Shown in pieces: positions 8,906 through 35,154 of a stretch of 41,859 nt of DNA; positions within the stretch are counted from its first letter, which is position 1; the number at the start of each line of letters is the position of its first letter. Both the position numbers and the translations under genes were made by a program. Location: NCBI GenBank assembly GCA_016936215.1, contig JAFGPL010000101.1, positions 1 to 41,859 of the forward strand. Reading direction: 5' to 3'. The DNA comes from Bacteroidales bacterium (GTDB lineage Bacteria > Bacteroidota > Bacteroidia > Bacteroidales > UBA10428). Below the pieces are notes generated by a model that saw only the letters and a list, made by a program, of their open reading frames with translations, ran no database searches and was not told the origin of the DNA.

Positions 8906-11900
8906 ATGAAACCAAAACTTTTACTATTATTTATGCTTATGTCTTTTGGTATCCTGCAGGCACAGGACACCATCAAGACCCTGATAATTACCGAGGCAAG
9001 GCTCGATGATGTTCGGGAATCTTATGTTGAATTAACAAATATGGGCGCCGATACCATTAATCTTGCCGAATTTGAGGTTGGTATAATAGGTGCATGGACT
9101 ACACCATGGGATCCGGGTGGAAATTATTGGATGATGTTACCCGAGAAGAAACTGGCCCCGGGCAATAGTTTTGTTATCGCTTCTGCCCATGAATGGACAC
9201 CCAGGCAATGGCTTAAAGACCCTACAGCTTATTCAAGGAGCCTTACAAAAGCAGAAATGTGGACTGTTGCCGACATGCTGCTCCATTTTCCAGAATCACC
9301 GGTTTCTGACCCTACAGACAGCATTTCTCCAAAGTACAGGATACTTGAAACCTGGAATGGAAGGGATTGTATTTATGTAAGGCACCATGTTTCTGAAACT
9401 GACTCGGCTGTCATTGATCAGGTCAATGGTGTATTTACAAATTCAGCAGGTCAGCGTTTTGACACCAAGGATGCATATGATGTTGCTGGAGTAACTGATG
9501 CAACCAATGAATGTACCCTAGTAAGAAAATTTAGTGTAAAAAAAGGTAACCTTGATTTTATTGGTGCAGCAGGACAAGACCTTGCTGAATCGGAGTGGAT
9601 ACCTATCCCGCATCAGCTTGGTCACTGGGAAGTTGCAGAAAACCTCAGGACACTTTTCTGGACTGTTGGTAACCATGGAAACTATGTTTTGGATCAAGCA
9701 ACTTTGGTTTCCACTACAATTGACATTAACTGGACAGACAGTATACTTACTGTACCCTGGGGAGTGAGAAACGACGACTCTATTATGAGCGAATTTAATA
9801 AAGTTCCGGGTATTGCATGGCACTACCATTATGCAAAGAACCATGAAGATTCTGCATTCATGTCTGCAAGAACTGGTGATATCCTAACAGTATACGCCTG
9901 CGGTGACGAAATGCAGAAAATTGATTTTGAAATACAGGTGGCAGCGCCAACCAGCGATGCCAATATTGTAATTCCAAAGTATCCCAAAAACGATGATGGT
10001 TTCTATGCCGCAGTTACTCCTTTCTGCCGTGTTACTGACGGAATCCCTGGAATGGATACAATTTATGAGATTCCTTACGCTTTACGTGTGGATACTTTAT
10101 TTAAATATCTGGAAAAAGCACCGCAAGCATCCTGGGAAATAGTATTTGTTGACGGTGTTACAAGGACAGACCTCAAAACTGGGGATAAATTAAAAGTTAC
10201 TGCAGGGAATAGTGCCATTAAGGAATACTACATTAAAACTAATCCTTACAGGCCAAGTCATCAGGCACGTTTGTCTTCTATTACCTGGCCGGATATACCG
10301 GAATTCTTGAAAGGTACTTTTGGATGGACAGGAGATACAATCCCGAGTTTTGATCCTTCGGCATACAATTATATTGTTACCTTGCCACTTGAAGTTGAGG
10401 AAATACCAGCTTTGGTTGCAAAAGCAATTGATGAGAATGCAGTAGTTGAAGTACAGACAGCTGTTAGCCTGGATGGAAATTCAACTCATAGGACAGTTAC
10501 ATTTACTGTTACTGCTGAGGATGATACCTCAGTTCGTGTATATAATGTACAATTTAATAAAGAGGAGGTCTCAACAAATATTCAACCGTGGGTAGGTGAT
10601 CCATTCATTTCACAATATGTTTTTCAGGATCAATGGGCAAATACATTTTTAGAAATTTGTAATCCTGGTACTGAACCTCTTGATTTGAGCAATTATATGT
10701 TCACCTTTGGATCAATATATGATCCTGCAGATGCTATACAAGCTTTCTCCCAAGCAGGAGACTGGATGTCAAGGTACCGCAAATATATTCCTGGTTACAA
10801 ATGGCAACCCCAGACAGATTGGGAAGTAACACCGGCTATTGCTGTTCAGGACCTGAATGTAAATTCTGTTGTTCAGGCAGGAGATGTATTTGTAATGGGA
10901 CATATTAATGGTACTGGACAAAGTGGTTATCCATGGTCTGCAAGTGAGGAGTGTGATATTGATTTTGGGCATAATCCTTGGGGCGAACATGACTCTACAA
11001 TTGTTAATACTGCATTGGCTGGATGGGAAGGTTCTGTGAGAGTGCTAATGTTCAAGATACTAAACGATTCTGTTAAGTCAGGAGACAAGCCCGCGACAGA
11101 TCCAGATGATTTTGAACTAATTGAATCATTTGGTGATCCGACTTCAACCTGGCCGATTATTGGCGGTTCGCAGATTCAACAGATTAATAGTTTTGTACGC
11201 AAACCTCAGTACTATAAGGGTACACCCGCACCATCCGAATCATTTGGTACAGATGCTGCCACAAGCCAGTGGATTATGACAGATAGAAATTATTATACCA
11301 ATCTTGGTTATGGATGGCCAGCTGATATTTTGGCAATTACCACTGGTATCGGAAGTCATTTTATGTATGAACCTACTGTTGGAAAATCAACTATAAAATC
11401 TTTATATTATAAGGTTAGTCCGGGTTATTCCATGGATGAATCAATTATTGGTGTTGTAACGGGGACTACTGCAAATGATTTCTTAAGCAGGATAATTAAG
11501 ATAGATGAAGGACAGACACTTACTGTTAAAAATGGTACTACCGGTGATGCAGTTACTGGCCTCGCATCTATATTAGATGGCGATACCCTGATTGTACTAT
11601 CTGCAGATGCTTCCAATACCACAAAATATTTACTTACTGTTGATGCAGAAGGATTGAGCGATGATGCACTTCTTACCTCTGCAACTTATACAATAACAGT
11701 GGATGGTGGTACAGGAACAGTAAGCGGCTTTGATTATGGTACGAAACTTTCAGCTATCGTTGCTGGTGTGACAGTCCCTGAAGGTGCCAAAATGAAAGTA
11801 ATTGATGATAAAGGTGCCTATATGCCATTTACAATGTTAAATTTTGATACACTTTATGTGGACGTACTTGTGAATGATAAGATATTTTTTGAAGTAACTG

Positions 11901-12718
11901 CAGAAAACTTTATTAATAAAATTACTTACCAGCTTCAACCTACTGCAACAGCTTCCGACGCATTTGTTACTTCAAGTGTGTTCAATGTTGACCAGGAGAC
12001 TTCTTTGATAGCGCTTGTACCGGATGGTATCACAGTTGAAGGCTTTATGAAGTATATTATACCGGCACCTGGAGCTGCAATAAAACTGGTTGACAAACTT
12101 GATCTTGACCGTACAGAAGGCTGGGTTGTTAAAGACGATAAACTCGTAGTAACTTCATCAGACGGGCAAACAACCAAAATATACTATCTGAATATGCTTG
12201 GTGAAATCCCGCAGTATCTTGCCTATGTTGTTTCTGATATCTATGCTGTTGACCAGGAAGGATATGTGATCTCTGGTGAGATTAACAGCGCAACCCTTGT
12301 TAGCGCATTCAAAGCCGGACTAACCCCTTCTCTTGGTGCAACTTTCAAAATTGTTGATGCATCTAATAATGAAAAAACTGATGGCTCACTTCATGCAGGT
12401 GATAAAGTTGTTGTGACAAGCGCCAACGGACTGGTGGTTAATGAATATGCCATTGATGTATTGACTTCTGTTCCCGATGACATATTTAACAATATCAGCC
12501 TCTATCCAAATCCTGCAAGCAGCAAAGTAACCATCTCAGGACTTGAAATAGGTTACCGCATACAGGTTTGGGATATTGTAGGCAATATGGTTACAGAAAC
12601 AATAGCCGAACAGGATATTCAGGTAATTTCTCTTGAAAATCAGCCAAAAGGGATTTATTTCATCATAGTTAGAAATGCTGACAATGCTCAGGGCCATTTC
12701 AAGCTGATTTTGAAATAA
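8906..12718 (+). CDS. Large secreted multidomain protein: LTD-like N-terminus, cadherin-like beta-sandwich, four tandem ~85-aa C-terminal modules, T9SS sorting domain
   Basis: Signal peptide ...SFGILQAQ; LIITEARLDDVRESYVELTNMGADTINLAEF (LTD-like); FDPSAYNYIVTLPLEVEEIPALVAKAID...TVTFTVTAEDDTSVRVYNVQF (cadherin-like); YPNPASSKVTISGLEIGYRIQVWDIVGNMV...GIYFIIV (T9SS). Confidence 0.75.
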   Translation: MKPKLLLLFMLMSFGILQAQDTIKTLIITEARLDDVRESYVELTNMGADTINLAEFEVGIIGAWTTPWDPGGNYWMMLPEKKLAPGNSFVIASAHEWTPRQWLKDPTAYSRSLTKAEMWTVADMLLHFPESPVSDPTDSISPKYRILETWNGRDCIYVRHHVSETDSAVIDQVNGVFTNSAGQRFDTKDAYDVAGVTDATNECTLVRKFSVKKGNLDFIGAAGQDLAESEWIPIPHQLGHWEVAENLRTLFWTVGNHGNYVLDQATLVSTTIDINWTDSILTVPWGVRNDDSIMSEFNKVPGIAWHYHYAKNHEDSAFMSARTGDILTVYACGDEMQKIDFEIQVAAPTSDANIVIPKYPKNDDGFYAAVTPFCRVTDGIPGMDTIYEIPYALRVDTLFKYLEKAPQASWEIVFVDGVTRTDLKTGDKLKVTAGNSAIKEYYIKTNPYRPSHQARLSSITWPDIPEFLKGTFGWTGDTIPSFDPSAYNYIVTLPLEVEEIPALVAKAIDENAVVEVQTAVSLDGNSTHRTVTFTVTAEDDTSVRVYNVQFNKEEVSTNIQPWVGDPFISQYVFQDQWANTFLEICNPGTEPLDLSNYMFTFGSIYDPADAIQAFSQAGDWMSRYRKYIPGYKWQPQTDWEVTPAIAVQDLNVNSVVQAGDVFVMGHINGTGQSGYPWSASEECDIDFGHNPWGEHDSTIVNTALAGWEGSVRVLMFKILNDSVKSGDKPATDPDDFELIESFGDPTSTWPIIGGSQIQQINSFVRKPQYYKGTPAPSESFGTDAATSQWIMTDRNYYTNLGYGWPADILAITTGIGSHFMYEPTVGKSTIKSLYYKVSPGYSMDESIIGVVTGTTANDFLSRIIKIDEGQTLTVKNGTTGDAVTGLASILDGDTLIVLSADASNTTKYLLTVDAEGLSDDALLTSATYTITVDGGTGTVSGFDYGTKLSAIVAGVTVPEGAKMKVIDDKGAYMPFTMLNFDTLYVDVLVNDKIFFEVTAENFINKITYQLQPTATASDAFVTSSVFNVDQETSLIALVPDGITVEGFMKYIIPAPGAAIKLVDKLDLDRTEGWVVKDDKLVVTSSDGQTTKIYYLNMLGEIPQYLAYVVSDIYAVDQEGYVISGEINSATLVSAFKAGLTPSLGATFKIVDASNNEKTDGSLHAGDKVVVTSANGLVVNEYAIDVLTSVPDDIFNNISLYPNPASSKVTISGLEIGYRIQVWDIVGNMVTETIAEQDIQVISLENQPKGIYFIIVRNADNAQGHFKLILK

Positions 12719-12762: not shown

Positions 12763-13062
12763 ATTATTTAAAATGCATTTAACAAGGTGAAATGCTGTAT
12801 AGGTGAACCAAATGGAAAAGTGAAAAGTGGTTGTATTTATATAATTGTTTTATTGTTAATACAGTAACTTAAAAAATTCATATTGATAATCAGATAAGTG
12901 TTGCAGGGCATTATTATTAATGCTGCTGTTTTTTTTTTTTTGACAAGAGATGTAAATTATTTTGTTAAAAAATATTGCATATTAAGTAATTCTGATTATC
13001 ATTGTGTTCCACTTTTTTCCTCCTCACCATATAGATTAAGTTTCACAAACATTTGGTGTATC

Positions 13063-15060
13063 ATGTTTTCCCGGTTATCATTTACCTTGTATACTGCTAT
13101 GTTGTGGTTTCTTTTATCCGGCAGCACAGATGGTCAGGTTGCACCCTGGCAGGCCGATTCTGTGATAAAAAAAGGCATTAATCTTGGCAATACACTTGAG
13201 CCTCCGCTCGAAGGCGGCTGGAATAATCCTGCTGCACAGGAATACTATTTTGATATGTATCATGAAGCGGGTTTTGAATGTATCAGAATTCCTGTAAGGT
13301 GGGATGAACATACACAGGATTCTTATCCATACCATATTGACGAAAGCTGGATACAGAGAGTAAATGAAATAGTAGACTGGGGGCTGTCAAGAGGCCTGTA
13401 TATCATCATCAATGCCCACCATGAAGATTGGATAAAAACAAACTATTCCAATGCCGGTTACAGAGAAAGGTTCGACAGTATCTGGGCACAAATATCATAC
13501 AGGTTTAAGGATAAATCCGAAAAACTTTTTTACGAGATAATAAACGAACCCTACGGCCTTACCAAAGACCAGAATGATGAACTTCATCAGCGTATACTGA
13601 GTATTATCAGGAAGACAAACCCGACAAGAATTGTTATCATACAGGGCCACAATTGGGGCGGTTCTGATGAACTTGTTCAGATGGCAATCCCTGCCGACAC
13701 TTTTCTTATTGGTTCTTTTCATTCCTACGATCCTTATACTTTTGGACTTCTGGGCGAAGGCACCTGGGGTACCAGTTTTGATTATGCATTGCTCGAAAAT
13801 AAATTTTCGACGGTTAATAACTGGTCAGTCAGTAACAACATTCCGGTTATCCTTGGGGAATTTGGATCGCTGAGAAGCTGCGATTACAACTCGAGGATGA
13901 AACATTATAAAGCATATATGGAATTATCTCATAAATACGGTTTTATTCCCTGTGCCTGGGATGACGGAGGAGATTTTCGAATCATGGAAAGACAAGACCA
14001 TGCATGGGATGAGGTGAAGGATATTCTGGTGCATACATCAGCCTTTTCTCCAAAAAATCCTGCCTTATCGGTTTTTCAGGATACAATAATTCATCTAGAG
14101 TGGATCAATCCGGCTAATGATTATGACAGTATTTTTGTTGAGAGAAAAACCCCTGGCGGAACTTATTCCCGTGTGGCTTCAATAAAAGGAGATACGGCCA
14201 GCTTTTATGATATAAACCCCGTTCCTAATTCATATTATCATTACAGGGTTATTGCCCATTATGACTATGCCGACGACCTTTATTCCCATCCGGTGAGAAT
14301 TTATTTTCCGGCGTATGAACCAAAAGTCAGGTTACCGTTTTTAGGTTATAGCCATACAATTCCCGGGACCATTGAAGCTGAGGACTTTGATAAAGGGGGT
14401 GAGGGATTGTCTTATCACGATTCAGGCCCAACCAACCTGGCTGGTGCATATCGCCCTCTTGAAGCAGTAGATATATACGACCGGTTGGGCGATGGCTATC
14501 ATATTGGAAACGCGCTGCCTGACGAGTGGTACGAGTATTCTGTAAACATTGAAAAGGACAGCACTTATATGATTCAGGTCATGATTGCAACCACCCTGGG
14601 TGGGGGCAAATTTATTATTGCATTCGACAGCATTGTATCTGATACACTAACTGCTGTAAATACATACAGCCAGCTCAATACCACTGCAATTTCAACTATA
14701 ATGAACCTTCCCAAAGGTGAATATATCATGAGGTTCACCATTTTAGATGGCCCCATCTTCAATATTGATAAGTATACTATCATGGCATACAACACATTAT
14801 CCGCAAGCCTGAGAGAAGATATAAAATTTACAGGGGTTGCTGCTTACCAGAATTCAAATAAAGAGATAGTTATCCGGACTTCAGATATTTTCAGTTTTAA
14901 ACAAATAAAATTGTATTCATTAAGCGGAGAAATGATTTGTGCCGGGAATGAACCAGGAAACAGACTGAAAATGCCTTCAACCGGAATCAACCCGGGTTTA
15001 TACATAGTCCAGGCAATTGCCGGAACAGGTATTCTAACTAAAAAAATATTTATACAATGA
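13063..15060 (+). CDS. GH5 family glycoside hydrolase (GH5_4-like endo-beta-glucanase) with CBM6-like module and T9SS sorting domain
   Basis: KGINLGNTLEPPLEGGWNNP, FECIRIPVRWDEH, acid/base FYEIINEPYG, nucleophile PVILGEFGS; CBM6-like GTIEAEDFDKGGEGLSYHD...ALPDEWYEYSVNI; C-term KQIKLYSLSGEMI...GLYIVQAIAG. The track start at 12898 has no signal peptide; the ATG at 13063 (MFSRLSFTLYTAMLWFLLSG) does. Confidence 0.88.
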   Translation: MFSRLSFTLYTAMLWFLLSGSTDGQVAPWQADSVIKKGINLGNTLEPPLEGGWNNPAAQEYYFDMYHEAGFECIRIPVRWDEHTQDSYPYHIDESWIQRVNEIVDWGLSRGLYIIINAHHEDWIKTNYSNAGYRERFDSIWAQISYRFKDKSEKLFYEIINEPYGLTKDQNDELHQRILSIIRKTNPTRIVIIQGHNWGGSDELVQMAIPADTFLIGSFHSYDPYTFGLLGEGTWGTSFDYALLENKFSTVNNWSVSNNIPVILGEFGSLRSCDYNSRMKHYKAYMELSHKYGFIPCAWDDGGDFRIMERQDHAWDEVKDILVHTSAFSPKNPALSVFQDTIIHLEWINPANDYDSIFVERKTPGGTYSRVASIKGDTASFYDINPVPNSYYHYRVIAHYDYADDLYSHPVRIYFPAYEPKVRLPFLGYSHTIPGTIEAEDFDKGGEGLSYHDSGPTNLAGAYRPLEAVDIYDRLGDGYHIGNALPDEWYEYSVNIEKDSTYMIQVMIATTLGGGKFIIAFDSIVSDTLTAVNTYSQLNTTAISTIMNLPKGEYIMRFTILDGPIFNIDKYTIMAYNTLSASLREDIKFTGVAAYQNSNKEIVIRTSDIFSFKQIKLYSLSGEMICAGNEPGNRLKMPSTGINPGLYIVQAIAGTGILTKKIFIQ

Positions 15061-16058
15061 TAAACAACAGCATAAAAATCTATATTTTAAAAAGGAGAAT
15101 ACTTCTTTTTGCGGCAATTTTATTCGTTGGTATTTGTTTCGTTCAGGCACAGCCGGTAAAAAAACATGGAAAATTATCTGTAAATGGAACCGCATTAACA
15201 GATGAACATGGCGATACAGTAGTACTCTCCGGTGTTAGTTACGGATGGCATAACTGGTGGCCGAGATTTTACAATAAAGAGACGGTGAAATGGCTTGTTG
15301 ATGACTGGAATTGTACCGTGGTCAGGGCTGCCATGGGAGTAGAGCCCAAAAAAGGCTATCTTGACTCACCCGAATGGTCTAAAGAAAAAATCGAGGCTGT
15401 GATTGAAGGGGCTATTGAAAATGACATTTATGTGATAATTGATTGGCACAGTCATGGTTTGCAGATGAAAGGTGCGCTTGAATTTTTTGAAGAGATGGCC
15501 AAAAAATACGGGAAATATCCCCATATTATTTATGAGATATATAATGAACCCGATCACCAGTCATGGGATGAGGTAAAAGCATACTCAATCGAAGTGGTCA
15601 GCAAAATCCGTGAATTCGATCCGGACAATATTATACTGATTGGCACCCCGCACTGGGACCAGGACCTTCACCTTGCTGCGGATGATCCTTTAGAAGGGTT
15701 TAGTAACCTGATGTACACCCTTCATTTTTATGCTGCAACACACAAACAACAATTACGCGACCGGGGAGATTATGCCATGCAGAAGGGACTTGCCGTTTTT
15801 GTTTCCGAATGTGCCGGGATGTCTGCAAACGGAAACGGCCCCATAGATTATGATGAATGGAATAACTGGATTGAATGGATGCAGAAGAATAAAATCAGCT
15901 GGGTTTGCTGGTCGGTGGCCGACAAAAACGAAACATGTTCGATGCTTTATGAATCTGCCGGTTCAAAGGGTGGATGGACTGAAAATGATTTAAAAGAATC
16001 AGGGATTAAAACAAGGGAACTTTTGCGTACCGGGAAACTTACCCGTAACAGTGAATGA
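15057..16058 (+). CDS. GH5 family endoglucanase (GH5_2-like), signal peptide, no T9SS tail
   Basis: GKLSVNGTALTDEHGDTVVLSGVSYGWHNWWPRFYN, VVRAAMGVE, acid/base IYEIYNEPDHQSW, nucleophile FVSECAGMS; ATGA overlap with the preceding CDS. Confidence 0.9.
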   Translation: MINNSIKIYILKRRILLFAAILFVGICFVQAQPVKKHGKLSVNGTALTDEHGDTVVLSGVSYGWHNWWPRFYNKETVKWLVDDWNCTVVRAAMGVEPKKGYLDSPEWSKEKIEAVIEGAIENDIYVIIDWHSHGLQMKGALEFFEEMAKKYGKYPHIIYEIYNEPDHQSWDEVKAYSIEVVSKIREFDPDNIILIGTPHWDQDLHLAADDPLEGFSNLMYTLHFYAATHKQQLRDRGDYAMQKGLAVFVSECAGMSANGNGPIDYDEWNNWIEWMQKNKISWVCWSVADKNETCSMLYESAGSKGGWTENDLKESGIKTRELLRTGKLTRNSE

Positions 16059-19000
16059 TTTTAAGAATAATGAAGAAACTTTTCACCATCATATTATTTT
16101 CCAGTTTTATTTGTGTCTCTGCACAACAGGAGGTTACTATAAATATTGATATAAACCAGCAGGCAAGGCCAATATCGCCCTATATCTTCGGAAAAAACAA
16201 TTGCCTTTCCGACCGGCCGGGTAGTCCTTTGACTTCTGCGCAGTGGCAGAAACTGCGGGACCTGGGGATACAAATGTTCAGGGAGAACGGTGGCAACAAT
16301 GCCACAAAATACAACTGGAGACGAAAACTATCAAGCCACCCCAACTGGTACAACAATGTGTATGCTCACGACTGGGATTACGCTGCCCAAAGTCTTCAGT
16401 CCAACATTCCCCATGCGCAAGGCATGTGGGCATTTCAACTGGCCGGAAAGGCCGCCAAAACTATGGCCTATAATTTCAACGATTATAGTTATAATGGTTC
16501 TCAATGGTGGGAAGGTGTTGAGCAAAATGTTGCCGGCGGTGGACAGGTAAACACGGCAGGAGGCACCGAAGCGCTGGTAGAAGGTAATCCTTCGCTCTAT
16601 CTTGAAAGCTGGGACGCAGATTCAACCACGGGTATCCTTGACAGGTGGTTTGGCACAGGCGGAATCGGGCTCGATACATCGCGGATTATGTACTGGAGTA
16701 TGGACAACGAACCCGAAATATGGTCGGGTACACACGATGATATATGGCCGGTTCAACCTGATGCAGAAAGTTTTATGCAAATGTATTTTGCCACAGCGAA
16801 AAAGGCCAGGGCAAAATTTCCCGGGATCAAACTCGTCGGGCCAGTCCCGGCAAACGAGTGGCAATGGTATAACTGGAACGGCAATAAAGTTAGTTATAAC
16901 GGGAAACAATATGTCTGGCTTGAATATTTTATTTTACGTATAGCCGAAGAGCAACAGGCTACAGGAACCAGGCTGCTTGATGTACTTGATATACATTTTT
17001 ATCCCGGAGAAAAAAATCCTGCAGATATTGTACAGCTTCACAGGGTATTTTTTGATGAAACGTATGCCTATCCAGGGGCAAACGGGGTGAGGCGTTCAGG
17101 GACCGGTTCATGGGATGTTACGCTTAACAAAGAATATATTTTTAAAAGATGCAATAACTGGCTTGAACAATATATCGGTCCGGGACACGGGGTTACACTT
17201 TCGGTTTCTGAAACCGGTATAGAAGATACCCAGACAGATGTGACAGCTTCATGGTACGCCTCCAATATTGGAGAGTTTATGAAACAAGGGGTGGAGATTT
17301 TCACACCATGGACATGGAAAACCGGAATGAACGAAGTATTACACCTGTTCAGCCGCTATTCCAATAAATACTTCATTGACGCAATTTCTTCAAACGAACT
17401 ATATGTTTCAGCCTATACAACAGTTAATTCAACAAAAGATTCAATGACCGTTTTCCTGGTAAACCGTCATTTGACAGAATCAAGGAATATTGATCTGAAT
17501 ATCACCGGATTTCCTGTTAAGAACGGGCTGTATAATACCTTTCAGATATACGATTTGCCAGCAAGCGAAACATTTGTGTCGCATACTTCAAATGCTTTGA
17601 AAAAAAATAAACTGCTGATTGAAAACAATAAACCGCAAATACAGTTACCACCATTATCAGTTACTGCCCTGGTTCTGAAACGTGCAGATAATATTAAGAC
17701 ACAATTCGGATACCAGATAACAGAAGCAGAAGCTGAAAACGGTGTCTTTTCTGGAGTAACTGTATCCAATGCAGTCGCCGGGTATTCCGGTACAGGTTAT
17801 GTTACCGGTTTTGACAATTCCTCCGACAAAGTGACGGTTGAAGTCTATATCCCTGAAAAAAACCTCTTTAAACTGATGATTCGTTACAGGAGTGCTGATG
17901 GACAAAAATACCAGAACCTGTTGATTAACAATCAACCGGTTGCAAGCATCAGGTTTCTTGAATCTGAAACTTTTACCTATACGGACGCAGGCAGTTATAT
18001 CCTTGAAAAGGGGATTAATAATATTTCAATTTTAAGCAAATGGGGTTACACAGATATTGATAAGTTTGAAATCTATCCCGCTGCACAGAATATTTTTGAT
18101 CTTTCGCCAGGCCTGGTTGATACGGCAGCATCTGAAACTGCAAATGATGTGTATAGTTTTCTTTTAAACCAGTTTGGTGAACGGATTATCTCAGGCCAGA
18201 CACATGACTATTATAGCGAAGTAACGATAATTGCAGGTAAATCGCCGATGATAAGGGTTGCGGACTTTCAGCATTTTACTGAAGGATATCCCTATTTATG
18301 GTATAATGGAGGCCATACCTTTGGTAAGGACGATGACGGTTCGGTAAATGAACTGATAAACTGGTACAACAGCACCGGTAAAAAGGGCATCATTTCTTAC
18401 CAGTGGCACTGGCATTCTCCTTTCGGGGGTTCAGCGGGCACGAACACTTTTTATACCAGTTTAACAACATTCGATGTCAGCAAAGCTGTTATCCCGGGCA
18501 CACCAGAGTATGACTCGATAATAAGGGATATTGATGATATTGCTGCAGAATTAAAGAAGTTTCAGGATGCCGGTATCCCTGTGCTCTGGCGCCCTCTTCA
18601 CGAGGCAGGCGGAGGATGGTTCTGGTGGGGGGCTAAAGGTCCGGAACCATGCAAGGAATTATACAATATTCTTTTCGAGAGGCTTAAAAACCATCACCAT
18701 CTGCACAATCTTATATGGGTATGGTCAACACCTGAGGAGGAATGGTATCCTGGCAACGATAAAGTTGACATTATCGGGTATGATTCATATCCCGGTGAGT
18801 ATAATTACAGCAACCAGAAATATGCATTTGATGAGCTTTTCAGAATAACACAGGGGAAAAAGCTGATTGCCATGACTGAAAACGGACCAATACCCGATCC
18901 CACAGCATGTCTTACCGAAGGCGCCCCCTGGCTTTATTTTATGTCCTGGAGCGATCTTGTCACGCAACAAAACAGTACTGCCCATATTCAGGAAGTTTTT

Positions 19001-21589
19001 AACCATCCTGATGTAATTTCTCTTGAATCTGATAATGTTAAAACCTCACGGCAATGGCGTAGTTCTTTATACCCGGAGGACTGGAAACCGGGGTTTAAAG
19101 ACAGCGATGGAAGATTTTTACACGATTTCTCCTATGCAGGCTATCATTCAGGTGAAAAAAACCTGCCCGATATACAGGAAAATATTCTGAATGTTACCCT
19201 TCCACCTTATAATGCAGATAACACAGGTGTTGAAGATGTTACATCAGTAATTCAGAAAGCCATTGAAGATGCCGGGGCTTCCGGGGGCGGGGTAGTGTAC
19301 CTGCCCGAGGGAACATACAGGATAGTTGTACCTGATACTTCCGATGCAGCTTTATTAATTACAGGTGACAGCATTATTCTTCGCGGGGATGGCCCTGAGA
19401 AGACTTTTATTTTTCACGATCAGGATTCCATGCGGTTTAAAAGCATTATAAAATTTGGTTCTGAAGATGCTAACTGGTTTGAACCTAAAGGTTTTTCAGC
19501 CGCGTTAACCACCGATTTGCTTGAACCTTCACGTATTATACCTGTTGATTCGGTTTCCGGCTTCAAAACCGGCGATATGGTGGTAATAGCTTCGCAGCCT
19601 ACTGATGGTTTTATCGAAGACCATTTAATGACCGGGTATTGGACTGCCGGTGCTATAAAAGGAGTGGCATTTTTACGAAGAATAGATTCAGTTGACACTG
19701 AAAACAACCTGTTGTTTATTGATGCCCCAACCCGATATTTTCTTAAGACACGTGATCATTCCGCAGTATATCACGCAGGAAACCATATTTCTGAATGTGC
19801 TGTTGAAAATCTTTCAGTCGGCAACCGGCAAAATTCCAAATCAGGATGGGAGGAAGAGTCCTATTCTATAGATAGCACGGGCGCCTACGATGCCCACTTC
19901 TCTCAGGTCATTACATTCAGAAATGCTGTAAACTGCTGGCTGAAGAATGTTTCTACCTATAAACCTGCAACAAATACCGAAGATTTTCATGTTTTATCAA
20001 ATTGCCTGTTGCTCGATCAAAGTCGTTTCATTACAGTTGATTCATGCAACTTTCAGAAACCGCAATACGAAGGTGGAGGTGGAAACGGATACATGTATAC
20101 CCTGCAATCAAATGATTGCCTGATTAAGAACAGTATTGCCAATCATGCAAGGCATAATTACGATTTTAAATATCCTTACAGCAATGGCAATGTAATTCAC
20201 AACTGCCGTGCAGAGAATTCCAAATATGCCAGCGATTTTCATATGTACCTGAGTATGGCAAACCTGTTTGATGCCTGCACGGTGAGCGGGGATTACCTCG
20301 AATCTGCTTTCAGGCCCTGGGGTAGCAGCGCAATACACGGATACTCTTCAACACAATCTGTTTTTTATAACATAAAGGGAGAAGCTTATCATCCTGCCAG
20401 GGATTATATTGTTGAATCGCGCCAGTTTGGGAATGGATATATCATTGGTACTTCAGGAGAGGCAAACAAAATAGTGCTTGACCCGGCCGAAGGGATAATC
20501 AATGGATATTATTACAACACCATGCCCCGCGATTTTGCAGAAGGTGTAGGGAATGGTGACTTTATTGAACCAATATCTCTTTACCTCGACCAGCTTGAAA
20601 GAAGGATGAAGGATACTGTTGCCGGCAGGACATTTGAGGTAAATATTGTTATTAAGGATAAATCCTCAGATGATGTAATACCGGGATGCGAGGTAAAAAT
20701 CTACAATGAAACCATTATTTCGAACGAATCGGGCATAGCAGGCTTTTCCAATGTGCTTGAGGTTTTTGTAGCTGAGGCAAATCACACACTATACATCCCC
20801 ATGGAAAAGAAGCAAGTTGTGATTATCAGCGATACAACACTTACTTTCTATCTTGAAAAAAAAACTTTTAGTGTGGATGTGAAGCTATATAATGAGAATA
20901 CGAACATGATACTGGCCAGTTGCAATTTTACACTCAATGACATTACAAAAACCACCAATTCGGAGGGTCTGGTTTCATTTACTGTAACTGCTGGTATTTC
21001 TGACTATTCAGTACAAAAGAATTACTTCCAGTCGAGTGTCGGCACCTTTGAAATCATTTCAGATACTACCGTCAATTTTTACCTTCGGCAGATTCTTGCA
21101 GATGTAAAATTCAGGTTATATGAAGATGGCGTACCCTTAAACAATGCACTCGTAAAAGCCAAGGCAGATTCCATCATTACCAATTCTTTAGGACTGGCTT
21201 TGTTCAGAATGGTTACCGTGCCTTCCTGGTTTGAATATTCAATAACAAAAGAGGGCTATATTGCTATTGAAGATAATTTTTACCTGGTAACTGATACGAC
21301 CATAGAACTGAATATCCAAAAAGTGAATTTGACTAACAGGAATTTGGAAAATCCGGAAGCTATTCAGATATGGCCGAATCCGGCTGAAAGGCAACTTTAT
21401 TGCCATTTTCCGAAAGAGTTTACCGGCAGGTTTCTAAATATCGTTAATTTGCTAGGGAATGTAATTGGTGAATATAAAATTGATACTGAGGAGATGGTGA
21501 TAAATGTTGAAAACCTTGAATCAGGTCTGTACTTTATAAATACAGGTGCAAATGAAGAAAAGTATAATATGTATTTTATTAAAAAATAA
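16055..21589 (+). CDS. Multicatalytic enzyme: GH44 - CBM35-like - GH26 - right-handed beta-helix domain - three small beta-domains - T9SS sorting domain
   Basis: GH44-like SPYIFGKNN...RENGGNNATKYNWRRKLSSH and YWSMDNEPEIWSGTHDD; CBM35-like EAEAENGVFSGVTVSN...YSGTGYVTGF; GH26 VLWRPLHEAGGGWFWWG and IAMTENGPIPD; NADNTGVEDVTSVIQKAIEDAGASGGGVVYLPEGTYRI (beta-helix start); IWPNPAERQLYCHF...GLYFIN (T9SS). Real start may be ATG at 16070 (MKKLFTIILFSSFICVSAQ). Confidence 0.85.
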   Translation: MILRIMKKLFTIILFSSFICVSAQQEVTINIDINQQARPISPYIFGKNNCLSDRPGSPLTSAQWQKLRDLGIQMFRENGGNNATKYNWRRKLSSHPNWYNNVYAHDWDYAAQSLQSNIPHAQGMWAFQLAGKAAKTMAYNFNDYSYNGSQWWEGVEQNVAGGGQVNTAGGTEALVEGNPSLYLESWDADSTTGILDRWFGTGGIGLDTSRIMYWSMDNEPEIWSGTHDDIWPVQPDAESFMQMYFATAKKARAKFPGIKLVGPVPANEWQWYNWNGNKVSYNGKQYVWLEYFILRIAEEQQATGTRLLDVLDIHFYPGEKNPADIVQLHRVFFDETYAYPGANGVRRSGTGSWDVTLNKEYIFKRCNNWLEQYIGPGHGVTLSVSETGIEDTQTDVTASWYASNIGEFMKQGVEIFTPWTWKTGMNEVLHLFSRYSNKYFIDAISSNELYVSAYTTVNSTKDSMTVFLVNRHLTESRNIDLNITGFPVKNGLYNTFQIYDLPASETFVSHTSNALKKNKLLIENNKPQIQLPPLSVTALVLKRADNIKTQFGYQITEAEAENGVFSGVTVSNAVAGYSGTGYVTGFDNSSDKVTVEVYIPEKNLFKLMIRYRSADGQKYQNLLINNQPVASIRFLESETFTYTDAGSYILEKGINNISILSKWGYTDIDKFEIYPAAQNIFDLSPGLVDTAASETANDVYSFLLNQFGERIISGQTHDYYSEVTIIAGKSPMIRVADFQHFTEGYPYLWYNGGHTFGKDDDGSVNELINWYNSTGKKGIISYQWHWHSPFGGSAGTNTFYTSLTTFDVSKAVIPGTPEYDSIIRDIDDIAAELKKFQDAGIPVLWRPLHEAGGGWFWWGAKGPEPCKELYNILFERLKNHHHLHNLIWVWSTPEEEWYPGNDKVDIIGYDSYPGEYNYSNQKYAFDELFRITQGKKLIAMTENGPIPDPTACLTEGAPWLYFMSWSDLVTQQNSTAHIQEVFNHPDVISLESDNVKTSRQWRSSLYPEDWKPGFKDSDGRFLHDFSYAGYHSGEKNLPDIQENILNVTLPPYNADNTGVEDVTSVIQKAIEDAGASGGGVVYLPEGTYRIVVPDTSDAALLITGDSIILRGDGPEKTFIFHDQDSMRFKSIIKFGSEDANWFEPKGFSAALTTDLLEPSRIIPVDSVSGFKTGDMVVIASQPTDGFIEDHLMTGYWTAGAIKGVAFLRRIDSVDTENNLLFIDAPTRYFLKTRDHSAVYHAGNHISECAVENLSVGNRQNSKSGWEEESYSIDSTGAYDAHFSQVITFRNAVNCWLKNVSTYKPATNTEDFHVLSNCLLLDQSRFITVDSCNFQKPQYEGGGGNGYMYTLQSNDCLIKNSIANHARHNYDFKYPYSNGNVIHNCRAENSKYASDFHMYLSMANLFDACTVSGDYLESAFRPWGSSAIHGYSSTQSVFYNIKGEAYHPARDYIVESRQFGNGYIIGTSGEANKIVLDPAEGIINGYYYNTMPRDFAEGVGNGDFIEPISLYLDQLERRMKDTVAGRTFEVNIVIKDKSSDDVIPGCEVKIYNETIISNESGIAGFSNVLEVFVAEANHTLYIPMEKKQVVIISDTTLTFYLEKKTFSVDVKLYNENTNMILASCNFTLNDITKTTNSEGLVSFTVTAGISDYSVQKNYFQSSVGTFEIISDTTVNFYLRQILADVKFRLYEDGVPLNNALVKAKADSIITNSLGLALFRMVTVPSWFEYSITKEGYIAIEDNFYLVTDTTIELNIQKVNLTNRNLENPEAIQIWPNPAERQLYCHFPKEFTGRFLNIVNLLGNVIGEYKIDTEEMVINVENLESGLYFINTGANEEKYNMYFIKK

Positions 21590-21718
21590 ATGTTATGTAT
21601 TTAACAATTAATGTATTTACATTTTACACATCAGCAGGTTAAATAGATTTAAACTAATATTTTTTTTTATATGTTTGCAAAGATTATTAACGAGAGACCG
21701 AAGAAATATTCTAACAAA

Positions 21719-24016
21719 ATGACAAATAATAAACTACTGCTGATCATTGCAGGAATAGTGATTTTTTTCATAAGCTGCAATGATGAATTTGAACAGGATA
21801 AATACAAGCGGCCCGATTGGCTGGCCGGGAAACTGTATACACAGATCAAGGACAAGACAACGCTCTCTTTGTTTGCAAGATGTATTGAGCGGACTGGTTA
21901 TGATACCATCATTAATACGTCTGGTTCGTATACGGTCTTTGCACCCGACGACAATGCTTTTTCACTTTATTTTCAAAGCCATCCGCAATATACATCGGTT
22001 GAAGATATTCCCATTGAAGAACTCAGCAGGATTGTGAAATATCACATTATTCAGAATCCCTGGAGCAGGGAACAGCTTAGATCGCTTGATGTTTACGGGT
22101 GGATTGATACCCTGGATATCAATAACGATCAGCCCGCGGGATTCAAACGGGAAACCTTGTTGCGGGAGACTGACCAGAAATATGGAGTCGCAACTGATGC
22201 TGACAATAACTTTAAAATCGTTGATACCTTATTATCTCCATGGTACAGAAGAAACTATACAGATTCAAGAAAGTATGCCCCTGTGTTTTACCAGGACTAC
22301 CTAGATATATATGATTTAACTTCAGACGATTATGAATTCTATTTCGGAAGGCCTTTTGATAGTCCTGCCGATATGTACTATATGGGAGGGAAGATAACTG
22401 AAGGCGATATTTTTGCAGAAAATGGATTTATTCATGTAATAGACCGTGTAATAGAACCGCTTCAAAATGCAAGTCAGATACTTAGTACGGAGGTGGGTGA
22501 AAACTCATACTCCAAATTTTTTGACCTTGTTAATTATTTCCCCGAATTTACATACAATGAGGAAAGAACTTTTGATCAGCCAGGGGCAGAGTTAGGCTAC
22601 GAGGTTGACTCTCTTTTTGACATTTCCTATCCCGATCTCGCGTTTGATATTATAAATGAAAAGACCAAAGCCCCCAAAGGCACCATCGGGTTACCCTCTA
22701 ATGTATCCATTCGCTATCATCATGGTTTGGTTGCTCCCACCAATGAAGCGCTTGATGCTTTTGAAAATGAATATTTCGTCGGGGGGTTTCAATGGGGGAG
22801 CATCCGCAATGCACCTCGCCATTTGAAAAGAATGATTGTAAACACTTATATGTCAACGTATCCGATTTATCCGAAAGATTTTGCCGACGGTTTTATGAAC
22901 GGGGAATCAGACATTGTTTCTCTTGACCAGTCCTCGGTTGTTCAACAACAATATGGCAGCAATTGTACATTCATCGGGGTAGATCAGGCTATTGTCCCGC
23001 GTGCCTTCAGTAGCGTTACCGGACCGGTTTATCTTAACAGGGGATATTCTTATGCCATGTATGCCATCGAACGTGCAGGATTGATCTCGACTTTAAAAAA
23101 AGCTGACCGGGATTATCTACTGTTTGTGGAATCGGATGTGAATTGCCAGGATGACTCCTCTTTATTATATAATATATACACGGAGATTTTTTCTGGATTT
23201 TTGATTTCAGGTCAGTCTGCACAAAGGGTTAATTTTTCGACAAACGATTTAAGGATACTCCTGATGAACCATATTGGCACTGCCATTCCAAAGAAAATTG
23301 CCCGTAAAGAGTTTATTCCAAACCTTGCTGGTAATTTTATCATTTTTAACAACGAAACAGGCGAAGTATCCGGTAATGTTCAAACAACAGTAGGATATAA
23401 AGGTAGTAAACCTGTGGTTGTGATTCCCAATCAGATAAGTACAAATGCCGATAACGGATTCACTTACGATATCTCTAACTGGTTTGGATTTTCAGCTTCT
23501 TCTATTTTGATCAAATTACAGACTTCTTTCCCGGCATTTTTTTCATTGCTTCAACAGGCCGGATTGGCGACGAGTTCAAAAATTACATTTATTTCAGACA
23601 ACGAGAATTATACCGTTTTTGCCCCTAGTGCGGCTGCACTTGCCGCTTATAACACAGATACACTTACTACAGATGAGTTAAAAAAATTCCTGATGATGCA
23701 TTTTGTGCAGGGAACATTGATGTTTACAGATGGTAATCTGTCTTCCGGCTATTACGAGACTACCAGAATTGATGAAAAGTCCACTTCATTTGCCACCATA
23801 TTCACAAAAGTGTATATTGATCCCGGTATTGATCTCATTACCTTCCCTGACAAATCCAGCAATCCATACCTTGAAGTAAGTGAATCTGCTGTTACCAATA
23901 TTATTACCGGACGTACTTTAAGCGATGAGCAGTTTAATTTTCCGAATATAGTATCTAATGGCGTGATACACGAGATTGATAAAGTTTTACTATTCGATAT
24001 GCTGGATACCCAATAA
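21719..24016 (+). CDS. FAS1 (fasciclin) repeat lipoprotein, PUL-associated
   Basis: Lipobox IVIFFISCNDEFEQD from ATG at 21719; FAS1 motifs LSLFARCIERTGYDTIINTSGSYTVFAPDDNAF...YHII and ITFISDNENYTVFAPSAAALAAY...GVIHEIDKVL. Confidence 0.85.
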   Translation: MTNNKLLLIIAGIVIFFISCNDEFEQDKYKRPDWLAGKLYTQIKDKTTLSLFARCIERTGYDTIINTSGSYTVFAPDDNAFSLYFQSHPQYTSVEDIPIEELSRIVKYHIIQNPWSREQLRSLDVYGWIDTLDINNDQPAGFKRETLLRETDQKYGVATDADNNFKIVDTLLSPWYRRNYTDSRKYAPVFYQDYLDIYDLTSDDYEFYFGRPFDSPADMYYMGGKITEGDIFAENGFIHVIDRVIEPLQNASQILSTEVGENSYSKFFDLVNYFPEFTYNEERTFDQPGAELGYEVDSLFDISYPDLAFDIINEKTKAPKGTIGLPSNVSIRYHHGLVAPTNEALDAFENEYFVGGFQWGSIRNAPRHLKRMIVNTYMSTYPIYPKDFADGFMNGESDIVSLDQSSVVQQQYGSNCTFIGVDQAIVPRAFSSVTGPVYLNRGYSYAMYAIERAGLISTLKKADRDYLLFVESDVNCQDDSSLLYNIYTEIFSGFLISGQSAQRVNFSTNDLRILLMNHIGTAIPKKIARKEFIPNLAGNFIIFNNETGEVSGNVQTTVGYKGSKPVVVIPNQISTNADNGFTYDISNWFGFSASSILIKLQTSFPAFFSLLQQAGLATSSKITFISDNENYTVFAPSAAALAAYNTDTLTTDELKKFLMMHFVQGTLMFTDGNLSSGYYETTRIDEKSTSFATIFTKVYIDPGIDLITFPDKSSNPYLEVSESAVTNIITGRTLSDEQFNFPNIVSNGVIHEIDKVLLFDMLDTQ

Positions 24017-24058
24017 ACACTGAACCGAAACATATTTTAACAAAGATTTTTGTATAAA

Positions 24059-27000
24059 ATGAAAAACATAAGAAAACCAATTATACTTCTGCTGGCCCTA
24101 ATAAGCTGTCTGACTGCATACTCACAAAAGTCAATTCTGCGCGGCAGGGTATTTGATAAAAGTGACAATGCTACCATTGTAGGGGCCAATATCATTGAAT
24201 ACGATAAAGACAACCGTATTATCAACGGTACGATTACCGATGTGAATGGCGACTTTGTGCTTGAAATGCAGAATCCGGCAAATATTATAAAAGTCAGTCT
24301 TATTGGTTACGAAACAAAAGAGGTAAAACCCGATTTTTCTAAATCTATGGTGATCGTACTCGAAGTATCTGCCCAGGAGCTTGAGGAGGTTGTAGTTACC
24401 GCTCAGGCCAGGACTTTCAGGGGGCTTACCAATATTGACGACCGTGACAACGCTTCAGCCAGGGTCAAGGTTGACATGATGGATATGAAAGAATCCGGTG
24501 TTCTTACCGCCTCAGATGCACTGCAGGGGCGGGTAAGCGGCCTCGACATTATCGCTTCGTCAGGTGACCCGGGTTCGGGCTCGTCCTTGGTCATCAGGGG
24601 GTTAAGTTCAATCGGCAATAACAAACCGCTTATTGTTATTGACGGAATCCAGCAGGCAAGGATACCATCCGACTTTAATTTAAGTTCGGCAAATGCTGAA
24701 GATATTGGTAACCTGTTAAACATTGCCGTTCAGGACATCAAATCAATAGAAATTCTTAAAGATGCTGCATCCACCGCAGTATACGGTTCTGCAGGTGCCG
24801 ATGGGGTATTGCTTATCGAGACACAAAAAGGAAAACTGGGGAAAGTACAGTTCGACTATACCTACAAAAACAGTATCAATATTCAACCCCCCGCCATACC
24901 CATGCTTAACGGGGATGAGTATATAATGCTGCAGCTTGAAGAGTGGCACAACAGCCAGGGTATTTTTGAACTCCCCCCTGAGATCGCTTATGATAAAGAC
25001 TATGTTAATTTTTATAACTATTCAGCCAATACCGACTGGCTTGGGGCCATTACCAAAAATGGTGTCACCCACGACCACTATTTCAGCATTCAGGGAGGAG
25101 GCGAAAAAACACGTTACTTTACTTCAATAAGTTATATTGATGAAGGGGGGACTACCATTAACACCCGGTCAAAGCGTTTCTCAACCCGTGTGAACCTTGA
25201 TTATTATCTCTCCCGAAAGATGGTATTCTCTATACAGTTCAATTATACCTACAATAATACAAAAGGCAATTTTACTTTCAACAAGGGTGCCGATAATGAA
25301 ATGACTGTAAGGAAAATGGCCTATATCAAAGCCCCCAATATGAGCATATGGGAGCATGATGCATACGGAAACCTTACGGGGGAGTATTTTACACCTATCA
25401 ACAGTTACCAGGGAGGCGGAGATTCTTATTTTAATCCGGTAGCTGTGGCGGTGCTGGGCAAAGACGACCGGCTGGGCAATAATCTGAACAATGCCTTTAC
25501 CTTACGATACAATATTTTAGACTGGCTGGTGTTTAGGGAAACCATCTCATTCCAGTTTGACGGCAGCAAGTCCAACAATTTTCTTCCATACAATGCTCTG
25601 GGCTCAGACTGGTTGGCATGGACCGTGAACAAGGCTGAAGAAAGTAACAATATTTACCGGCAGATAAATACTGAAACACAACTTGCATTTGATTCGCCTT
25701 TTAAAAGCAAAACACATTTTCTCTCAGGGGCATTGACCTGGATTACCCAGCAATCTGGATATGAATGGATGAACATTCAAAGCAACAAAACACCGAGTAC
25801 CAATATCCAGGATCCTTCAATTGATGCCCAGATAAACTGGATTGGCGATGGATCTGGTGAACAAAGGTTACTTGGGGCACTTGCCAACCTGAATTATAAA
25901 TTTCATGACCGATACATGGTTCAGACGATTTTAAGGGCCGATGCACACTCCTCATTTGGTTCAAATAACCGCTGGGGCTTATTTAAAGGTGTTTCCGCCG
26001 GATGGCGTTTCTCCGACGAACCATTGCTAAAGGAGATGAGTTTTATGGGGGAAAGTATGCTGCGCGTAAGCTGGGGGGTATCTGGCCGGCAGCCGAGCGA
26101 TCCCTATGCCAGGTTTGCACGTTATGGGGGAAGCACCTCAGGCAACTATATTACTAATACTGCAATTGTACCGAGCCAAACACAGTTGAATAATTTAAAA
26201 TGGGAAAATATTTCGTCGACCGATATTGGCATAGAATTAAATATGTTCAATGACAGATTATACATTGAAGGTGATGTTTATCAAAAAATTACTACTGACC
26301 TACTTTTTAACAAATACGATATCCCCTGGTCGTCCGGATATGAACAATTCTTGTTTCTTAACGGTGGTAAGCTTGAAAACAAAGGATGGGAACTGATGAC
26401 GGAATACCGGTTTTTACGAAAAAATGATTTAAGATGGTCGGTTAATTTTAATATTTCTCAGAATATTAATTCATTTACAGAACTTCCTGAAAATTTTAAT
26501 CCTGAGCAATCTACTTCAATCGGAAACAAGGAGTATCCCATCCGGGTACTTGAAGGTGAACCCATCGGATCTTTTTTCGGGTTCAGGTACCAGGGGGTCT
26601 ATCCCACCGATGCCGATGCTGTGGCCAGGGATGCACAGGGGAATGTGATTTATGATAATGAAGGCATTCCGATACCAATGACTTATCTGAGTTCTTATGT
26701 TTTCAAAGGAGGTGACCCAATATATGAAGACGTTAATCATGACGGTAAAATTGACCTGAACGACGTGGTTTACCTTGGTGACGCCAATCCTCAGTACATA
26801 GGCGGGTTTGGTACTGCAGTGAGGTACAGAAATTTTGACCTTACCTGTGGTTTCCAGTACAGGCTTGGTTATGATATTATTAATGGTGTGGCCATGGATA
26901 CAGAGGGCATGAATGACAGGAACAATCAAAGTAAAGCTGTATTAAGCAGATGGCGTGTTCAGGGACAGGATGAACCGGGCATGCTGCCCCGTGCATACCT

Positions 27001-27292
27001 GAACAATCCTGCAAATAACCTGGGTTCGGACAGGTATGTTGAAAGGGGTGATTTTCTCAGGTTGCTGAATATCATGGTGAGTTACCGCGCTGGCAAAAAG
27101 GTTTGTGATATGTTAAATCTCAGAACTTTAACATTTGCTGCCAGTGCCAGAAAAATCCTGACTTTTACCAATTATTCCGGTCAGGACCCCGAAGTGCCTC
27201 AGAATGCAAGCAATCCTTTCTGGATAGGAGTTGATAAGGCCAATACACCACCTCCCAGGGTAATCACATTTACTGTATCTGTAGGTTTTTAA
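24059..27292 (+). CDS. SusC/RagA-family TonB-dependent outer-membrane transporter (pair 1)
   Basis: CarboxypepD_reg-like N-terminus LRGRVFDKSDNATIVGANI; LEEVVVTAQ; plug ALQGRVSGLDIIASSGDPGSGSSLVIRGLSSIGNNKPLIVIDGIQ; IEILKDAASTAVYGSAGADGVLLIETQKGK. Track start at 24050 is TTG; ATG is at 24059. Confidence 0.95.
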   Translation: MKNIRKPIILLLALISCLTAYSQKSILRGRVFDKSDNATIVGANIIEYDKDNRIINGTITDVNGDFVLEMQNPANIIKVSLIGYETKEVKPDFSKSMVIVLEVSAQELEEVVVTAQARTFRGLTNIDDRDNASARVKVDMMDMKESGVLTASDALQGRVSGLDIIASSGDPGSGSSLVIRGLSSIGNNKPLIVIDGIQQARIPSDFNLSSANAEDIGNLLNIAVQDIKSIEILKDAASTAVYGSAGADGVLLIETQKGKLGKVQFDYTYKNSINIQPPAIPMLNGDEYIMLQLEEWHNSQGIFELPPEIAYDKDYVNFYNYSANTDWLGAITKNGVTHDHYFSIQGGGEKTRYFTSISYIDEGGTTINTRSKRFSTRVNLDYYLSRKMVFSIQFNYTYNNTKGNFTFNKGADNEMTVRKMAYIKAPNMSIWEHDAYGNLTGEYFTPINSYQGGGDSYFNPVAVAVLGKDDRLGNNLNNAFTLRYNILDWLVFRETISFQFDGSKSNNFLPYNALGSDWLAWTVNKAEESNNIYRQINTETQLAFDSPFKSKTHFLSGALTWITQQSGYEWMNIQSNKTPSTNIQDPSIDAQINWIGDGSGEQRLLGALANLNYKFHDRYMVQTILRADAHSSFGSNNRWGLFKGVSAGWRFSDEPLLKEMSFMGESMLRVSWGVSGRQPSDPYARFARYGGSTSGNYITNTAIVPSQTQLNNLKWENISSTDIGIELNMFNDRLYIEGDVYQKITTDLLFNKYDIPWSSGYEQFLFLNGGKLENKGWELMTEYRFLRKNDLRWSVNFNISQNINSFTELPENFNPEQSTSIGNKEYPIRVLEGEPIGSFFGFRYQGVYPTDADAVARDAQGNVIYDNEGIPIPMTYLSSYVFKGGDPIYEDVNHDGKIDLNDVVYLGDANPQYIGGFGTAVRYRNFDLTCGFQYRLGYDIINGVAMDTEGMNDRNNQSKAVLSRWRVQGQDEPGMLPRAYLNNPANNLGSDRYVERGDFLRLLNIMVSYRAGKKVCDMLNLRTLTFAASARKILTFTNYSGQDPEVPQNASNPFWIGVDKANTPPPRVITFTVSVGF

Positions 27293-27312
27293 CATATTGT
27301 AAATTAATTAAA

Positions 27313-30351: not shown

Positions 30352-30363
30352 AAAGCAAATAAC

Positions 30364-35142: not shown

Positions 35143-35154
35143 ATATTTTTAGCT

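Follow-up and report, generated by a model that had tools for sequence, protein, structure and literature searches.

A GH44-CBM35-GH26 protein with a PL29-related beta-helix, a putative polysaccharide lyase, in a SusC/D locus of a Bacteroidales bacterium

The stretch of Bacteroidales DNA analysed here (41,859 nucleotides, hereafter the window) contains a SusC/D polysaccharide utilization locus with two SusC/D pairs and two GH5 genes, and the features described below all lie on its + strand. The locus includes a T9SS protein of 1270 aa with a lamin-tail domain (8906..12718), recognised by Pfam and conserved upstream in homologous loci. This is followed by an endoglucanase-like GH5 + CBM6 protein (12898..15060; Pfam, and PDB 4u3a, Endoglucanase H, E=1e-86) and by a cellulase-like GH5 endoglucanase (15057..16058; Pfam, and PDB 5i2u, Cellulase, E=6e-119), whose gene overlaps by 4 bases the 5′ end of a large open reading frame (16055..21589), the subject of this work. 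Downstream, Pfam and synteny place a fasciclin-domain protein (21671..24016), the SusC1-SusD1 pair (24050..28779), two more fasciclin-domain proteins (28783..31908) and the SusC2-SusD2 pair (31936..37020). The same gene set is kept in two other genomes (G001 and G007), and membership of the large protein in this locus is directly established.

The large frame encodes a multimodular secreted protein of 1844 aa and runs as a single stretch with no interruption, although an in-frame ATG at 16070 is as good a start as the one at 16055. The protein is conserved over its full length in G001 (68%) and G020 (59%), and a homologue in a genome of another family (G566) is likewise conserved up to the point where the contig ends. 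Because of these three homologues, an assembly chimera can be ruled out. Judged by eye, the N-terminus is hydrophobic, MKKLFTIILFSSFICVSAQ, which suggests a candidate signal peptide.

The first catalytic module belongs to GH44 (aa 21-545; 16115..17689). Its Pfam match (PF12891) covers aa 104-317 with E=6.9e-22 and 78.9 bits, the cut-off being 25.1, and aa 26-541 can be aligned to structure 3ii1. The putative acid/base, E219 (16709-16711), aligns to the DNEP motif of 3ii1, and the putative nucleophile, E386 (17210-17212), is assigned from its motif and conservation, the HMMER alignment being offset by two residues against 3ii1; both are invariant in all homologues covering them. The module is predicted to be an endo-beta-1,4-glucanase/xyloglucanase. 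It is followed by a CBM35 (aa 558-673; 17726..18073; PF16990, E=1.9e-21, 77.1 bits with a gathering cut-off of 28), which aligns with the CBM35 of 3zm8, and by a GH26 module (aa 688-989; 18116..19021; PF02156, E=7.2e-61, 206.7 bits with a gathering cut-off of 20.2). The putative GH26 acid/base in the HE motif, E850 (18602-18604), and the putative nucleophile, E942 (18878-18880), are kept in every homologue covering them. The pair CBM35-GH26 aligns end to end with PaMan26A of Podospora anserina (3zm8, E=1.6e-91), and the closest solved relatives of the GH26 module are mannanases; the module is a predicted endo-beta-1,4-mannanase.

A right-handed beta-helix occupies aa 1000-1522 (19052..20620), supported by an AlphaFold2 model (pLDDT 96.4), a 67-member alignment and hhalign comparisons. 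A Pfam match to Pect-lyase_RHGA_epim lies inside it (aa 1052-1106, E=4.9e-8). The chain then continues with three tandem beta-domains of about 75-85 aa (aa 1531-1768; 20645..21358), whose pairwise scores of 50-59, with shuffles at ~25 +/- 4.7, mark them as true tandem repeats, and it ends in a sorting domain for Type IX secretion (aa 1772-1844; 21368..21586). The latter is recognised both by Por_Secre_tail (PF18962; aa 1772-1836, E=9.3e-9, 35.9 bits with a cut-off of 27) and by TIGR04183 (25.5 bits with a cut-off of 23), so that the protein is probably secreted by the T9SS and would be anchored at the cell surface. The original prediction, which had read GH44, a CBM35-like module, GH26, a beta-helix, three ~80-aa beta-domains and a T9SS tail in one unbroken frame, is thus confirmed in its observations, the HMM searches placing GH44 and GH26 above the Pfam cut-offs; the bounds that it gave for the beta-helix (about 19190-20520), however, were too narrow.

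The beta-helix family is strongly conserved: its 67 aligned members, from several phyla, share 43-73% identity across the whole 520 aa and 41 invariant columns, in which His, Asp and Arg are included (among the invariant positions are H1367, D1394, H1396, D1406, R1420, H1428 and N1439). One pattern scan confirmed 174 relatives. The family is represented in Bacteroidota, Paenibacillus, Lachnospiraceae and Verrucomicrobia, and we know of no established activity for any relative above 40% identity. Solved structures did not provide a family name. A Foldseek search of the PDB with the model found no close structure (best TM 0.45-0.47), the matches being distant phage depolymerases and lyases below a TM of 0.5, and PDB sequence matches cover only the N-terminal GGG motif. 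In a viral structure library, the best match (TM 0.63) was a mimivirus protein without clear function.

A profile relationship to polysaccharide lyase family PL29 is, by contrast with the control families, extensive and directly established. Against members of the curated BT3328/PL29 family, hhalign aligned 454 columns (99.9%, E=2.4e-31), whereas the GH28 control matched in just 76 N-terminal columns and the PL6 control gave no match, which rules out generic beta-helix similarity as the cause. The founder of PL29, BT3328 of Bacteroides thetaiotaomicron, cleaves HA/CS/DS as an endo-acting lyase (PMC9067506). Both groups have in common a full-length homologous core, a DFSYAGY motif, a C-terminal SLYxxQL helix and a set of invariant His, Arg, Asp and Asn residues; positions invariant in both include D1024, W1196, H1396, D1406, R1420 and N1439. 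They differ in that identity is only 21-24%, the beta-helix has no counterpart of the ~300 aa at the N-terminus of the PL29 model, and the loci and neighbours are not the same. Membership in PL29 itself was rejected (40.5 bits with a cut-off of 1100, NF058554), and we keep the relationship as clan-level kinship: the beta-helix is homologous to the PL29 catalytic beta-helix and belongs, on sequence grounds, to a family that is akin to PL29 and seems not to have been described. That it could be a third catalytic unit of unassigned family had been proposed before; the PL29 homology and the neighbouring genes of its relatives support this well and narrow it to a putative lyase, which most likely cuts a uronic-acid-containing polymer by beta-elimination.

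The genomic surroundings of these relatives are consistent with such an activity. GH88/GH105, KduI and KDPG aldolase consume the products of lyases. In G010, a stand-alone beta-helix adjoins genes for GH88, DUF4861 (a literature search on which yielded no paper), KduI, a KduD-like SDR and KDPG aldolase, and GH105-like genes stand immediately before the beta-helix in Pedobacter and two Hymenobacter. Among 12 Paenibacillus genomes, 8 carry a GH88-family gene within ~5 kb of the beta-helix, with ~0.4 expected from gene counts, a count that is not of independent events, as these loci are mostly orthologous. In G814, the GH88-family gene near the beta-helix is the only one in the genome. No GH88/GH105 gene occurs in the window, and the six of the genome all lie elsewhere, so the local locus itself lacks a lyase-product pathway. 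Across 81 neighbour proteins the Pfam tally is mixed (LacI 5, 2-hydroxyacid dehydrogenase 4, GH88 3, altronate dehydratase 1, alginate lyase 1); the signals of uronate metabolism in it are weak, and it thus does not fix GlcA or GalA. In Lachnospiraceae the beta-helix is fused to GH18 and CBM6, which points to a different substrate there, and in many genomes it stands alone, a secretion tail being its sole companion. As a separate lead only, GH44-like genes that score under the Pfam cut-off are found next to the beta-helix in Pedobacter and Hymenobacter.

The presence of GH44 and GH26 in one chain is already known. According to PMC5473887 (citing Cho et al. 2006), Cel44C-Man26A of Paenibacillus polymyxa combines both, endoglucanase, xylanase, lichenase and mannanase being its listed activities, and strain A18 (WP_017427072.1) has GH44, GH26, CBM3 and CBM35. 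As described there, this enzyme shares with the 1844-aa protein a single secreted chain with GH44, GH26 and CBM35, but it has a CBM3, no reported beta-helix and, being from a Gram-positive, no T9SS tail. Moreover, the Cel44C structure (2yih) matches the GH44 of the window only at E=2e-11, as a separate GH44 lineage. PaMan26A has the same order and spacing of CBM35 and GH26 but is a fungal enzyme without the other modules. An independent CBM35-GH26-GH44 chain of ~3195 aa occurs in another Bacteroidales family (locus L165, genome G712), with the same three module families in reversed order, no beta-helix, and GH26 and GH44 of different clades. The architecture, thought unfamiliar in the original prediction, is consequently not new as to GH44 and GH26, while in the literature searched we found no chain that joins them to a beta-helix lyase, which is no proof of absence.

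Comparison of otherwise matching loci indicates which part of the protein is constant. The beta-helix is kept where GH44 is absent (L063, L065, L066), L065 having a CBM35-GH26-beta-helix chain, and where both GH44 and GH26 are absent (L058, L060), and one genus (G007) encodes a GH44-beta-helix chain without GH26. The beta-helix is the conserved core, and GH44 and GH26 come and go; GH44 was joined to it once and CBM35-GH26 at least twice. An earlier description of the protein as a self-contained glucomannan depolymerase therefore placed the weight on the wrong part.

Taken together, we consider it probable that this is a T9SS-secreted protein of a SusC/D locus with three catalytic units, namely GH44, CBM35-GH26 and a putative lyase akin to PL29. 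The two hydrolases would open a beta-1,4-glucan/mannan matrix, assisted by the two adjoining GH5 endoglucanases, the lyase would cut an acidic, uronic-acid polymer within the same material, and the released fragments may be taken in through the two SusC/D pairs. A bolder form of this reading, which we put forward tentatively and hold to be possible, is that the beta-helix defines a new family of polysaccharide lyases extending over the four groups named above, and that the protein is a hydrolase-hydrolase-lyase aimed at one composite polymer of beta-1,4-Glc/Man and uronic acid, for instance an exopolysaccharide of bacterial or algal origin instead of plant glucomannan.

Other readings have to be weighed against a lyase. 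GH28, GH110 and the AlgE epimerases also use a beta-helix fold, the GGG motif is common to the beta-helix, AlgE and GH28, and together with the GH18 fusion of Lachnospiraceae this could make the domain a glycoside hydrolase or epimerase, in which case the chain would combine three hydrolases directed at a mixed matrix of plant cell walls. We regard this as unlikely, as past the N-terminal motif the profile homology extends to PL29 but to neither control family (GH28, PL6), and the neighbours of stand-alone relatives are genes of the unsaturated-uronate pathway. It is less probable still that the domain has no catalytic role and serves as a binding or scaffold module that keeps GH44 and GH26 attached to an acidic polymer: its invariant residues could line a groove for binding, and, like a binding module, it is found fused to several different enzymes, but in many genomes it occurs alone with a secretion tail, it also occurs beside GH88/KduI, and its invariant columns exceed the usual conservation of a binding module. 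Finally, the GH44, GH26 and GH5 enzymes are all predicted to act on beta-glucan or mannan, and the closeness of CBM35-GH26 to PaMan26A would likewise fit a depolymerase of glucomannan or beta-mannan only, with an auxiliary beta-helix and no acidic substrate; retention of the beta-helix where either or both hydrolases are missing makes this very improbable.

The new part of the protein is the beta-helix, a probable undescribed lyase family, large and apparently uncharacterised, with a testable prediction of activity and candidate catalytic residues common to PL29. The matching loci offer a natural series of chains (beta-helix alone, GH26-beta-helix, GH44-beta-helix and GH44-GH26-beta-helix), which bears on the question of why bacteria fuse hydrolases to a lyase.

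At the core of the multimodular enzyme encoded at 16055-21589 (+) lies a beta-helix module (BH) that probably represents an undescribed lyase family. The single open frame in the window yields 1844 aa, in which hmmscan placed GH44, CBM35, GH26 and the T9SS tail where the original prediction had them, and the three beta-domains near the tail were borne out as tandem repeats. The GH44 module (aa 26 to 541) is alignable to the solved enzyme 3ii1, and CBM35-GH26 aligns end to end with the Podospora mannanase 3zm8. The putative catalytic glutamate pairs of GH44 (E219 and E386) and GH26 (E850 and E942) are present here and in every homologue covering them. BH is also present as a whole domain, although its first proposed extent was too small: it spans about 520 aa (aa 1000-1522; 19052-20620), with a pectate-lyase-like motif (hmmscan) at its N-terminus, in the region already marked.

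Pfam and PDB sequence searches with BH matched only its N-terminal GGG-type motif, and an NCBIfam search gave a weak match to the family of BT3328 from Bacteroides thetaiotaomicron, the founder of PL29 and a lyase that acts endolytically on HA, CS and DS (PMC9067506). Against a PL29 profile of aligned BT3328-family members, one of which exceeds the curated cut-off, BH gave 99.9% probability (E=2.4e-31) over 454 aligned columns spanning the whole domain. This kinship is specific, since a control GH28 profile aligned over 76 N-terminal columns only and a PL6 profile matched nothing. Membership in PL29 was rejected: BH scores far under the family cut-off and counts as its kin only. D1024, W1196, H1396, D1406, R1420 and N1439 are among the residues that stay invariant across 67 beta-helices, drawn from several phyla, and across four PL29-type proteins. 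H1367, D1394/H1396 and R1420 are spaced by 26-29 residues, about one helical turn, and from this spacing and the predicted strands they are expected to form a ladder along one helix face.

This kinship, together with stand-alone relatives near genes using lyase products, makes BH a probable, still putative, lyase. One such relative (G010) lies beside GH88, KduI, a KduD-like SDR, KDPG aldolase and DUF4861, and another (G008) is accompanied by DUF4861. GH105-like genes lie immediately upstream of BH in Pedobacter and Hymenobacter. In Paenibacillus, a GH88-family gene occurs within about 5 kb of BH in 8/12 genomes (GH88-family gene numbers would predict about 0.4), a signal weaker than this count suggests because the loci are mostly orthologous; in G814 that gene is the genome's sole one. 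GH88/GH105 genes are absent from the window's own locus, and six occur elsewhere in its genome. The DUF4861 proteins, twice alongside stand-alone BH genes (L050:11177-12370; L051:5105-6367), are possible partners in the breakdown of uronate oligosaccharides. The window's genome also carries a distant BH paralogue (27%; L002, G000:C286:1381-2598), whose contig has a GH88-family gene about 13 kb away.

Among 23 genomes of the window's family and a sample of 393 from the order, the complete GH44-CBM35-GH26-BH order occurs in four (G000, the window's own, G001, G020 and G566), representing two families. Other matching loci carry CBM35-GH26-BH (L065, L066, L082), GH26-BH (L063, L067) or BH alone (L058, L060), and G007 has GH44-BH without GH26, joined at aa 540/546. 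A second CBM35-GH26-BH type is found in Mariniphaga and relatives (L059, L061, L064; CBM35 checked in L061 only). The gene in L082 (8579-12534) is broken into two overlapping frames, by an assembly frameshift or as a pseudogene. In trees, the five BH-fused GH44 modules form one clade (100/99), as do the BH modules of the matching loci (99/99), where G007 groups with L062 and G566 (95/99). Window-type GH26 modules cluster with stand-alone CBM35-GH26 from other families (100/99), and the Mariniphaga-type GH26 falls in a separate clade with G026. Module trees and chain variants together indicate that GH44 was joined to BH once and CBM35-GH26 at least twice; for G007, loss of the GH26 cassette is the simplest explanation. 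BH is the constant part of these chains. A Lachnospiraceae genome (L122:9803-13879) carries a member of this BH family joined to CBM6 and GH18, which hints at another substrate there.

The architecture had been unfamiliar to the original prediction, which holds in part. A published account (PMC5473887, citing Cho et al. 2006) already places GH44 and GH26 on one chain in Paenibacillus polymyxa. Another Bacteroidales family has chains of about 2000-3200 aa, one GH44-containing (L164:221-6199) and one CBM35-GH26-GH44 (L165:3-6887), the latter an independently arisen union. For the three-part GH44-GH26-beta-helix chain no report was found in the literature searched, nor was a characterised protein close to BH; thus, the multimodular enzyme is of a known kind and its BH version appears new.

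The locus is a polysaccharide utilization locus (PUL) with secreted enzymes. Upstream of the ORF lie two GH5 endoglucanase-like genes and a 1270-aa lamin-tail-domain T9SS protein without a catalytic Pfam domain (8906-12718), a constant PUL component whose counterparts (43-60% identity) occupy the upstream position in the majority of homologous loci. Downstream, three fasciclin-domain proteins (21671-24016, 28783-31908), unusual PUL partners retained across genera, alternate with two SusC/D pairs. G001 conserves the order of this gene set and G007 keeps it rearranged. Directly past the PUL, a 216-aa ORF (37185-37835) has a C-terminus weakly matching Ntox44 (bacterial toxin 44) in Pfam.

Most likely, the chain would be exported via T9SS and retained at the cell surface, with CBM35, a family with reported ligands among beta-mannans, uronic acids or alpha-galactosyl groups (PMC6048861), and the other modules keeping it attached to the substrate. 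GH44 and GH26 would cleave beta-1,4-glucan and mannan, BH would cleave a uronic-acid polymer through beta-elimination, and the two SusC/D systems would take up the products. The targets of these three activities may be a single composite polymer or different polymers within the same cell wall.
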